Shown piece after piece: positions 2,606 to 56,777 of a stretch of 64,000 nt of DNA; position 1 is the stretch's first letter; every line of letters starts with the position of its first letter. The translations under genes were made by a program, and so were the position numbers. Source of the DNA: an uncultured Spirochaetaceae bacterium (GTDB lineage Bacteria > Spirochaetota > Spirochaetia > Sphaerochaetales > Sphaerochaetaceae). The stretch covers positions 62,001 to 126,000 of the forward strand of contig CALXLD010000022.1 in assembly GCA_944389105.1 (NCBI GenBank). Direction: 5' to 3'. Under the pieces are notes generated by a model that saw only the letters and a program-made list of their open reading frames with translations, was not told the origin of the DNA and did no database searches.

Positions 2606-3472
2606 TCAGCCCTTAACAGCACCTGCTGTAGAACCGCTCATAAAGCTCTTGTTGAAGATGATATAGATAATCAGCATAGGTACGACAGCAATTGAAGCAC
2701 CTGCGAGCATGACATTGCATGCAGCAGCTCCGCCGCCAGTAGCCTTAAGCATATTTACACCTACTGTGAGAGGTCTCAGGTTGTCTCTTGCCATTGTGAA
2801 AACAAGAGGCATGATGTACTCGTTCCATCCCTGTCTGAATGAAAGGAGCGCGATTGTTCCCATAACAGGCTTAAGCACCGGAAGGATGATCCTGATGAAT
2901 GTCTGGAAGAAAGTACATCCATCAATCTTCGCAGCTTCATCAAGCTCCTTCGGTACAGAATCCACGAATCCTCTGGAAAGGAAGATATATGTAGCCTGCC
3001 CTGTTCCTACGGAAATGAGGATGATAGGAAGGAGGCTCTCATTCAGATGCAGCACTGTAGCAAGCTCATAAAGAGGTCTGATAGATACAGAACCTACGTT
3101 GATGAACATGAATGCGACAAAGATTCCATAAATCAGGTTCTTTCCAGGGAAATGGCTACGGGAGAATACATATCCTGCCATAGTGGAAATGAAAAGCGAG
3201 ATAAGCATAACCCCAAGGGAGATTATGACGCTGTTCCAGGTATATGTAGCGAATTTTGCACCGGTCCATGCCTGGACATAATTCTCGAAATGCCACTCGG
3301 TCGGGAATATGTTTGAACCTCCGACAAGAAGCTCTACATTGCTCTTGAACGAGCCAAGGACGATGTAAACTACAGGGAAAATAGTGATTATGGCAAGAAT
3401 AAGCATCAGAAGCCAGATTACTGACATGATTGCTTTCTGCTTTCCAGACATTACAGCTCTAGATTTTTCCAT
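2606..3472 (-). CDS. Carbohydrate ABC transporter permease, MalG/CUT1 type
   Basis: The 288-aa inner-membrane protein has six predicted membrane segments. It contains the binding-protein-dependent transport loop (EAAKIDGCTFFQTF, about residues 180-195) that docks the ATPase, typical of the second permease of CUT1 importers. A strong Shine-Dalgarno (AAGGGGG) precedes the ATG. It lies 11 bp after the partner permease. No ATPase gene is in the operon, as is common for CUT1 systems that share an MsmK-type ATPase encoded elsewhere. The substrate is unknown; the adjacent enzyme suggests an oligosaccharide. Confidence 0.93.
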   Translation of the reverse strand: MEKSRAVMSGKQKAIMSVIWLLMLILAIITIFPVVYIVLGSFKSNVELLVGGSNIFPTEWHFENYVQAWTGAKFATYTWNSVIISLGVMLISLFISTMAGYVFSRSHFPGKNLIYGIFVAFMFINVGSVSIRPLYELATVLHLNESLLPIILISVGTGQATYIFLSRGFVDSVPKELDEAAKIDGCTFFQTFIRIILPVLKPVMGTIALLSFRQGWNEYIMPLVFTMARDNLRPLTVGVNMLKATGGGAAACNVMLAGASIAVVPMLIIYIIFNKSFMSGSTAGAVKG

Positions 3473-49838: not shown

Positions 49839-49910
49839 GGGAACAATGTATCATATCCATATTAGCAAATTGAAGAAGCTATAATATACTTATCAATTAT
49901 GGAGGTTAGT

Positions 49911-51888
49911 ATGTTTGGTCCAAAGAAAAATAATACTGACAGTAATATATTTGCATGGGGGGGGGTATAAGTTATTACTCATAGCTATCACACTCCTCCT
50001 GATAGCTGTATCATGCCAGCAATATGACTGGGGAATGATAATCCCGCCGTTTTCCCGGCCGGGAGAAATAGGATCTGAAAGCAATCCATATACAATTTCC
50101 TCACAGGAAGATCTGGAATCTTTAAGGTCCATGAATACCGAAGGAATATATTTTGAACTCTCAGCAGATATTATTCTTAACGATTCATTTGATCCAATTC
50201 CCGTATTCAAAGGAACCCTAATAGGAAACGGCCATACTGTAAGCGGGCTGGAAACAAAGGAATATGCCTCATTTGACGAATATGTAGCTGCGGGTGGTTA
50301 TGTTATGGATGAGACAAGAACATTCAGTGCTTTCATCCAGGTTCTTGATGGTGGGAAGATAAGCGATATAAAATTCGAGAATTTCAATATCAAAGCACCT
50401 CCTGCATCGACCAATAATAATCATCGTTATATGGCAGTGGCTGTCGGAGCAGTTTCAAATGGAGCTACCGTAGAAAAAATCGTCATAGGATCGGGAACAC
50501 TCACTTCCCCTGTAAGAGCTGGTGGAGTTGCTGCTTATGTAAAGAATACAGATGGCTCAAACACCGTTAATACTATTGCAGAATGTATAAATAACGCAGA
50601 TATAACAACGGAGATTATGACAGACACATATGGAACTGCAGGAGGAGTAGTTTCAACAACAGCAGATGGTCCTGTCCTTATCGAGGCTTGCGAGAATACA
50701 GGAACAATAACCGGATATGTAGCTGGAGGCATTATTGGAGATATCCAGAACAACCTTGGAACCGGCCGGACAAGCGATGGCACAACGATAAATGGTATTC
50801 TTCTTAATAACTGTTCAAATAGCGGCAACATATGCGGTGTTGAATATGCCGGTGGAATTGCCGGTAATTTCTGGTATGGAGCTGGAGATATAAATTCAGC
50901 TTCCAATTCCGGAAAAATTGAATGCTATATTCCCGACGGGGTAACAGCACCAGCGAAAACAAAGCTGGGAGGAATAATCGGAGCTTCGCTGGTATCAGAT
51001 AACAAAAGAACTACCCATTACATAATAAATAGCAGAAATACTGGTGATATCGCTAACGAAGAGAACAGCGTAACAGCTTACATTGGCGGAATTATAGGAA
51101 CAGCTACGTTAGGACATATAACAATCGAAAACTGTTATATGGAAAGAGGAACACTTAAAACCGTAGAAGGCCCGGATCAGGCATATTCATCTACAAAAGA
51201 TCCCGTGGAAGAAGTCTCTGTTGGCGGAATAATCGGGAAAACCGAAGGCAACCAGATTACAATACGCAATTCATATGCCTTTGATGATGTCATTTATAAT
51301 ATACCTGCAGGATATAGATATGGAGAGATTGCAGGATATTTCGGCAGTGCAACATTCGATGTTTCCCCTGGATACAAATTCGACGATGGAACAACTGCAG
51401 ACTGGACTGATGAAGCCGATATCGAAAGGATGATGAATCAGGTACTATTCGATGAACCTACCGAAATAAAACAGCCGTTCGGTGTCTTCACGGCTTTGCA
51501 ATATTCCAGAGCACTAAGAGCTGAAAATATCACAGCTGAAAAATTCTACATTGGCGGAGCAAGCCGATATGTTACTGATGAAATTACACAGAGCTGGGTA
51601 ACAGGGAAAACAATCTATGATCTGACAGGTTGCAAAATCAAAGAACTGCATAGGGATCTGGACTTTGGTTCAAGAGGAGGCGGTGGCAGACAGACTTCCG
51701 TGCTCAAAGGTGTTGATATAGAGGAACTTATAATTGATGTCGATACAGGCGAAGAACCCGACTATGCACCGATAGGCATATACTTTGAAATAGATGATTC
51801 CTTCAGCTTCACAAACAATGCAACCGTTCATTTCTACTTGAATATAAACAACACCCAATATAAAAGTGCAAGCGGGAATATAACTTGA
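49911..51888 (+). CDS. Surface lipoprotein with GGxxG repeats, poly-G phase-variable start
   Basis: From the Shine-Dalgarno-spaced ATG at 49911 (GGAGG, 5 nt gap) translation meets a stop at 49968 just past a run of nine G. The long frame (to 51888) is one base off: with eight G it would give 658 aa beginning MFGPKKNN. A TTG at 49915, 9 nt from the same Shine-Dalgarno, reads it now, perhaps weakly. The protein has a lipoprotein core ending LLLIAVSC, then about eight GLUG-like GG[IV][IV]G repeats with NSG/NTG turns, a beta-helix pattern. It is AT-rich compared with its neighbours and ends before a perfect hairpin. Confidence 0.8.
49957..49965 (+). repeat. Poly-G tract (G9) near lipoprotein start
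   Basis: Nine consecutive G, the longest G/C homopolymer I found here, 46 nt inside the coding start. Loss of one G joins the Shine-Dalgarno-spaced ATG to the lipoprotein frame. It could equally be a sequencing length error. Confidence 0.9.
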
Positions 51889-55548: not shown

Positions 55549-55570
55549 CAAATCAGCAAATGGAGGATTT

Positions 55571-56777
55571 ATGAAAAACAAAATACCCCCCCATCACAAA
55601 ATATCTTATTTTCTTAGCTCTGATTCCTATACTGCTCATCGCATGTAACAACGGAAACTCACTTAATCCGATAATCTGGGCAGAATACTTCAACTCGAAT
55701 CGTGCAATATCCATTACAGGGCCGGAAGTTATCGATGTAAAAGCCGGAGAAACACCCACGGATACATATACGATAACCTATCGAAACGGAAACTCTGCTG
55801 AACTTTCCGCAGAAGAGGTCTTTGCAGACCTTGATACAAACAAATCCGGAGTTCAGAACATAAAGATAAGCCGAGATGGAGCTTCACTGGATGTCACTGT
55901 ATTTGTTTATGATTTCGGGCAGAAAGAAATAACTACAGAAATGGCCAAGCGCATTACTGAGGAGCTAACAAGCGGCAATCCAGATCCTACAGCTCTGAAA
56001 TTCGTGCAGGGATACAACATTCTCATCGAACAGGAAGGATTGAATGAAGGACCGGTGTATATACAGGATGAACAAACTGTAAATATTCCCGGAAATGGTC
56101 CAGTTACCTTCACTCCTGTATGGGGCAACAATCTCTTCCGGGGTCCTGCAGATTTCAGATTACTGAAACTTGCAGGGGAAGAAGGCAATCCGGTAGATTC
56201 AATATTTGCTATTGAAGCCAATAACATCATTGTTGAATACATCAACGGAGAGCTCTCAGGACTGAATAGTTCTGTTTCAAACAATGTCATCAACGGTATA
56301 AAGATAACAGGAACTGATGTTATCCTGCGTGATGCTGAACTGTATTTATCCTCATCTATCACGCCGCCTGAAAACAGGACACTTGTTGCACTGAATATTG
56401 ATGCAGAAGGCGTACTGATTGAGGACGTTGGGCTTCATGGCTTTGAAACTGGTGTCCTCATTTCTGAAAACGCCTCCGGTACCATAAAGAATGTGGATTT
56501 CAGCGGCCCGTGTATCATCAACACAGAGAATAAACTGCCAGAAATCAATCTTACCGGATGTACAGCCACAATGTATGATGGAGCAACTGCCGATGTAGTC
56601 ATCAGATGCCCAGAAGGTTTGAAAACAGATGCTGAGAACTGGATCTCTTCTCAGCAGGTAGCAAATCCCGGTCTTATATTCGGAATTGAAATACTGCAGG
56701 ACGTCGATATCGGAGGTGCTGAAATAGAGGATTGGGAAGAAGTCATTATCGATGGAGGCGAAGTCACAATGGACTGA
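55571..56777 (+). CDS. Beta-helix lipoprotein, out of frame by one base at a poly-C tract
   Basis: ATG 55571 follows GGAGG at ideal distance but after a run of seven C reads out of frame and stops at 55646 (25 aa). With six C (or nine) it becomes a 401-aa lipoprotein: MKNKIPPITK, core ending ILLIAC, then NNGNS. I translated the shifted frame codon by codon to 55941 and found no stop; it then runs to 56777. The mature part is asparagine-rich and beta-rich, with repeats like VLIEDVGLHGFETGVLIS that suggest a right-handed beta-helix. It is read here as phase-OFF rather than decayed. Without the shift only an N-truncated 278-aa piece from 55941 could be made. Confidence 0.75.
55586..55592 (+). 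repeat. Poly-C tract (C7) near lipoprotein start
   Basis: Seven consecutive C, 15 nt after the ATG, exactly where the frame breaks. Loss of one C restores a complete lipoprotein gene. Confidence 0.9.

Follow-up and report, generated by a model that had tools for sequence, protein, structure and literature searches.

A G9 tract as a probable translational phase switch of a lipoprotein gene in an uncultured spirochaete, and the genus-wide association of poly-G tracts with lipoprotein genes

A tract of nine G near the 5' end of a lipoprotein gene in an uncultured spirochaete is very probably a translational phase switch (a contingency locus), and judging from its sequence the gene should be OFF in the assembled state. 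The locus is part of a 64-kb stretch of DNA that was analysed as a whole (the window). An earlier interpretation of this DNA, made without database searches (the sequence-only reading), had proposed a phase-variable lipoprotein, and the comparison across the genus lends strong support to this proposal.

All features of the locus are on the plus strand. The Shine-Dalgarno (SD) sequence GGAGG (49901..49905), read from the sequence and also recovered by pattern match, is located 5 nt before an ATG (49911-49913). The frame starting there (49911..49970) comprises 19 codons and terminates at a TAA (49968-49970) just past the G9 tract (49957..49965), which is read from the sequence, is followed by TATAAG and is the proposed site of slippage. 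One register apart from this short frame is the lipoprotein frame of 657 aa (49915..51888), which according to its translation contains several GG[IV][IV/A]G motifs and which gave weak GLUG matches in a profile search. The sequence-only reading had described both the GGAGG-5 nt-ATG frame closing right after nine G and its one-base offset from a lipoprotein frame with GG[IV][IV]G repeats; the directly read coordinates and the translation agree with it. It had also noted a TTG downstream of the ATG that enters the long frame, and indeed TTG 49915..49917, a possible weak start 9 nt from the SD, opens the 657-aa frame. The lipobox LLLIAVS-C was recognized by motif in this frame; its cysteine codon lies at 50014..50016, and Cys34 is invariant among six aligned homologues (alignment A1).

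The slippage-prone tract separates ATG 49911 from the lipobox at 50014, as is characteristic of a contingency locus, and since the repeat unit is a mononucleotide and not a multiple of three, a change in length shifts the frame. The other known arrangement, a tract in the promoter spacer as in tp0126 or porA, was not found here: there is no TTGACA 5' of the G9 and no SD-linked start 3' of it. The neighbouring genes are ordinary and encode an M20-type peptidase, a 3'-5' exonuclease with HRDC, MgtC, and the ABC-3, ABC_tran and ZnuA proteins of zinc uptake. The window harbours a second lipoprotein locus on the plus strand (55571..56777), with GGAGG at 55562-55566, ATG at 55571 and a C7 run at 55586-55592; its lipoprotein frame is one register off ATG 55571, and no start was found for the long frame upstream.

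We propose that slipped-strand mispairing in replication alters the number of G residues. Tract lengths which leave a remainder of 2 on division by 3 (8, 11) would bring the signal peptide and the lipobox into the frame of the SD-linked ATG, and the surface lipoprotein would be made; with other lengths translation would end a few codons from the tract. The assembled G9 would correspond to a state in which the ATG is out of frame and the gene mostly OFF. Poly-G switches would control a whole set of lipoprotein genes across the genus, this gene included; they are placed either in the 5' coding sequence and act translationally or in the -35/-10 spacer and act transcriptionally. In living cells slippage would set the level of a protein that is probably located at the surface and may function in adhesion or in evasion of host or phage.

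A G9 tract alone is weak evidence, because 0.17 such tracts are expected in the window and 12 of 100 shuffled versions contain at least one. The case for a switch rests on context, since a single G9 is not rare by chance. The placement after a strong start and before a signal peptide, together with the many equivalents elsewhere, is not a chance effect. The own genome (2.13 Mb, 47 contigs) contains 25 separate runs of at least eight G, with lengths of 8 (six runs), 9 (15), 10 (three) and 12 (one). Chance predicts a falling series in which 8 is the commonest length, yet the peak is at 9. The search box of 18 of the 25 tracts contains a lipobox with 100 or more open codons after it, as compared to 27 of 1000 places drawn at random from the window. 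L040 (tract at 3001) and L049, which are lipoprotein loci by eye, are absent from the 18 because the lipobox pattern did not match them. At L049 the G9 (3001-3009) itself encodes the lipobox (VGGG-C) and is in frame as assembled.

Two arrangements occur among the tracts of the own genome. The window locus and L031, L039, L040 and L049 carry the tract within the 5' coding sequence. In the other arrangement it is located between TTGACA and a -10 box that mostly starts with TA, 23-63 nt before the start codon. A lipobox protein follows 11 of the 12 tracts with an upstream TTGA[CT], and for one no start was found; this set includes L037, a TTGAT match without a start that we do not regard as a promoter case.

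The promoter form, searched as TTGACA-N7-13-G8-N0-3-TA, was detected in 34 of the 48 genomes of the genus; none of these 48 contained the pattern in reverse. In a sample of the phylum the same pattern was present in 75 of 392 genomes and 26 of 166 genera, against three single matches (counted by eye) for the reversed control. The promoter-type tracts of the genus, which were taken from genus loci at about one locus per genome and include one (L096) from the window's own genome, precede a lipobox protein in 24 of 31 cases; for six no start was found, and one has a start but no lipobox. In the promoter-type and the coding-type sets alike, tracts with equal flanks of 25+25 nt were merged and the first was kept, so that copies with the same flanks but different lengths count once. 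For the coding form the reversed SD-ATG-G8 pattern was left out of the evidence: it is not a clean control, because in reversed form it matches promoter tracts located upstream of an SD.

Several further observations were made in this survey. Across the 48 genomes, 376 of 494 runs of at least nine G are followed by TA, while this applies to about 6% of the runs of 3-5 G in the own genome. Such a TA is expected for promoter tracts, yet 16 of 26 coding-type tracts (counted by eye) show it too. In G012, G013, G016, G017, G035, G040 and G044, many tracts are no more than about 150 nt away from the start of a contig, which suggests that repeated 5' ends break the assemblies. In G393, a spirochaete genome from the same class, 12 promoter matches were obtained, of which those listed are on one contig and have longer G tracts, of about 12-17. 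The highest number among 17 genomes, 21 poly-G promoter matches in 0.8 Mb, was found in G064 (L128, L148; Alphaproteobacteria bacterium Emb289P3bin18).

If tract length drifts, the registers of different loci should be mixed, and this is what we observed. The coding-type tracts with an SD-linked start (n=31) are distributed over registers 0, +1 and +2 as 13/12/6. Without L238, L240, L244 and two tracts of L247, which by eye do not belong to lipoproteins, 26 coding-type lipoprotein loci remain with a distribution of 9/12/5, close to the equal thirds that a drifting length would give. The evidence for length differences between near-identical copies comes from relatives. L087 (G9) and L088 (G10), which originate from different species, are equal at 48/48 upstream and 90/90 downstream bases (138/138), although the assemblies are of metagenome type and both copies are located near contig ends, which calls for caution. 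Within one genome, L079 (G10) and L087 (G9) are equal at 90/90 downstream bases and at 44/60 upstream bases (ungapped). The G9/G10 tracts at L240 (1580) and L247 (319 and 1580) are in frame near the protein starts, and their proteins presumably resemble phage tail-collar proteins.

Matches to the family of the 657-aa lipoprotein with E <= 0.001 were obtained in nine of the 48 genus genomes, the own genome included. At the 5' end of the stronger relatives L053-L057, and also of L060, there is a tract of eight or nine G; in L058 runs of G9 occur at other positions of the locus, and at L059 no G8 or G9 run was found in the locus. In L053, which is 64% identical, the G9 is positioned between TTGACA and TAGGCT with an ATG 26 nt further on, i.e. 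in a -35/-10 spacer, unlike in its homologue in the window. In L054 (55-56% identical), L056 and L057 it is the coding sequence that contains the tract, with a frame offset of one register. Thus, the family retains the switch but not its position.

These data also bear on explanations without phase variation. Since the assembled sequence already contains an open frame of 657 aa with a plausible signal peptide, TTG 49915 could be the fixed start and the tract an ordinary Gly-Gly-Gly stretch, and some expression with the present G9 could be sustained from this TTG, which counts against a switch. However, a 5' G8 or G9 recurs in homologues which have no start in the long frame (L054, L056, L057), the homologue L053 has its tract in the promoter, and a fixed start would leave the genus-wide link between tracts and lipoproteins unexplained, so that we consider this very improbable. 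Slightly less credible still is an assembly or sequencing indel in the homopolymer of a normal gene. Homopolymers are error-prone and the assembly is fragmented, but a miscount explains neither the preferred length of 9 nor the lipoprotein association nor the tracts in promoter spacers, and the proportions of in-frame and out-of-frame loci are near those expected by chance.

Programmed transcriptional or ribosomal slippage on the G9, by which a fixed out-of-frame gene would still yield its product, could be suspected from the +1 register shared by several relatives (L038, L040, L054, L056, L057). The distribution of 9/12/5 over the 26 loci reveals no fixed register, which argues against a fixed programmed frameshift, and such a mechanism cannot operate at tracts in promoter spacers. 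Its fixed form was therefore rejected, and to programmed slippage in general we assign a probability as minimal as that of an indel. A change in tract length at replication is the reading we prefer. Loss of MutS as an accelerator of slippage was also considered and rejected, since MutS_V matches were found in 48 of the 48 genus genomes.

The sequence-only reading had further proposed that tract length toggles between strong ATG and weak TTG initiation, resulting in a graded switch. At the window locus this is possible, because the TTG belongs to the long frame and its distance to the SD is 9 nt. As a general property it did not hold: in 14 of the 17 out-of-frame coding-type lipoprotein loci no ATG, GTG or TTG in the long frame was found upstream of the tract. 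The three exceptions are the window locus, L083 and L249, and only in the window locus is the long-frame start within 12 nt of the SD-linked ATG. Most out-of-frame loci look like true OFF states, as far as their start codons tell. Initiation at the TTG could make the window locus leaky or three-level, but it is not the way in which the set works.

In a three-level switch, the ATG would drive high expression in one register and TTG 49915 low expression with the present G9, while the third register would give none. In line with this, the third register, as read from the sequence, meets a TAA soon after the start in the upstream frame, and a precedent with multiple starts exists in lic1A, where three initiation codons in two frames are described together with colonies of high and low phosphocholine (excerpts of PMC4019658). 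On the other hand, no alternative start is present in L054, the nearest out-of-frame relative, and an alternative start near an SD can be due to chance. Together with the rarity of such starts in the set, this makes three levels a tentative and rather unlikely extension of the phase switch.

The protein itself gives few clues to its function. Its GLUG match (PF07581) scored 13.9 bits, below the gathering cut-off of 20.5; weak GLUG matches were obtained in four of six homologues (best E 0.005), and one homologue gave a match to the N-terminal region of M26 peptidases (E 4.7e-05). A search of solved structures revealed no solved relative but chance-level matches only (E 0.63 and worse), and the single-sequence structure prediction of the mature protein (mean pLDDT 40) was too poor for structure searching. 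A scan of ten other switched proteins gave Listeria-Bacteroides repeats in one and sub-threshold GLUG matches in three; the remaining six had no match. For the switched lipoproteins as a group we infer surface display and a role in the interaction with host or phage.

The mechanism is already known from Treponema, Neisseria and Helicobacter, and 5' homopolymers were described generally as inactivation switches (PMC2831843, in part). According to the excerpted text of PMC7864442, promoter poly-G tracts of T. pallidum vary in length and expression changes with them. The tprL tract varies from 7 to 11 within isolates and mostly has 9 G, and in a tprL reporter 8 G gave a stronger signal than 10; in tp0126 the tract is between -35 and -10. 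The loci described here resemble tprE/G/J/L and tp0126, which have tracts of 7-11 and mostly 9 G, in that they are spirochaetal and carry poly-G tracts at genes for proteins that are probably located at the surface, but in T. pallidum, as far as the excerpts go, these are mainly promoter tracts of outer-membrane proteins, while here a 5' coding tract and a lipoprotein set are concerned.

The phasome of Helicobacter canadensis, an unrelated organism, likewise combines poly-G tracts in promoters (5) and in 5' coding regions (16 candidates); there the length variation was observed in reads (excerpts of PMC2823697), here between assembled copies in relatives. In porA and opc of Neisseria meningitidis a promoter homopolymer sets the expression level (PMC7864442 and PMC3639595, in part); this control is transcriptional and graded, unlike the translational one proposed for the G9 locus. 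Haemophilus influenzae lic1A and lic2A are similar in having a 5' coding repeat with several start codons and graded phases (PMC4019658, in part), but their repeat is a tetranucleotide in LOS genes, and the multiple starts studied there are inferred here. In a limited literature search no report of phase variation in Sphaerochaeta was found, and for poly-G lipoproteins of spirochaetes in the gut and metagenome literature, the matches listed (titles and abstract starts) included no report on this uncultured group. Within this limited search, the dedication to lipoproteins and the swapped position of the switch look new. The window locus appears to be a genuine poly-G phase switch; its kind is known, its setting looks new and extends further than the sequence-only reading had recognized.

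As a speculation that we consider doubtful, poly-G with its TA edge could be an exchangeable switch module which spreads between lipoprotein genes by recombination at repeated 5' ends. One family would then be switched transcriptionally in one species and translationally in another, and the surface lipoprotein coat would be set combinatorially by 10-20 independent tracts of G8-G12, with some loci, such as the G9 locus, working at three levels. Natural pairs are provided by members of one protein family from different species, of which one carries the switch in its promoter and the other in its coding sequence. The signature is computationally simple, TTGACA-N-G8+-TA or SD-ATG-N-G8+-lipobox, and can be applied to existing metagenome reads. 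Altogether, our observations suggest that uncultured gut-type spirochaetes, outside the well-studied pathogens, have a large system of poly-G phase variation dedicated to lipoproteins.
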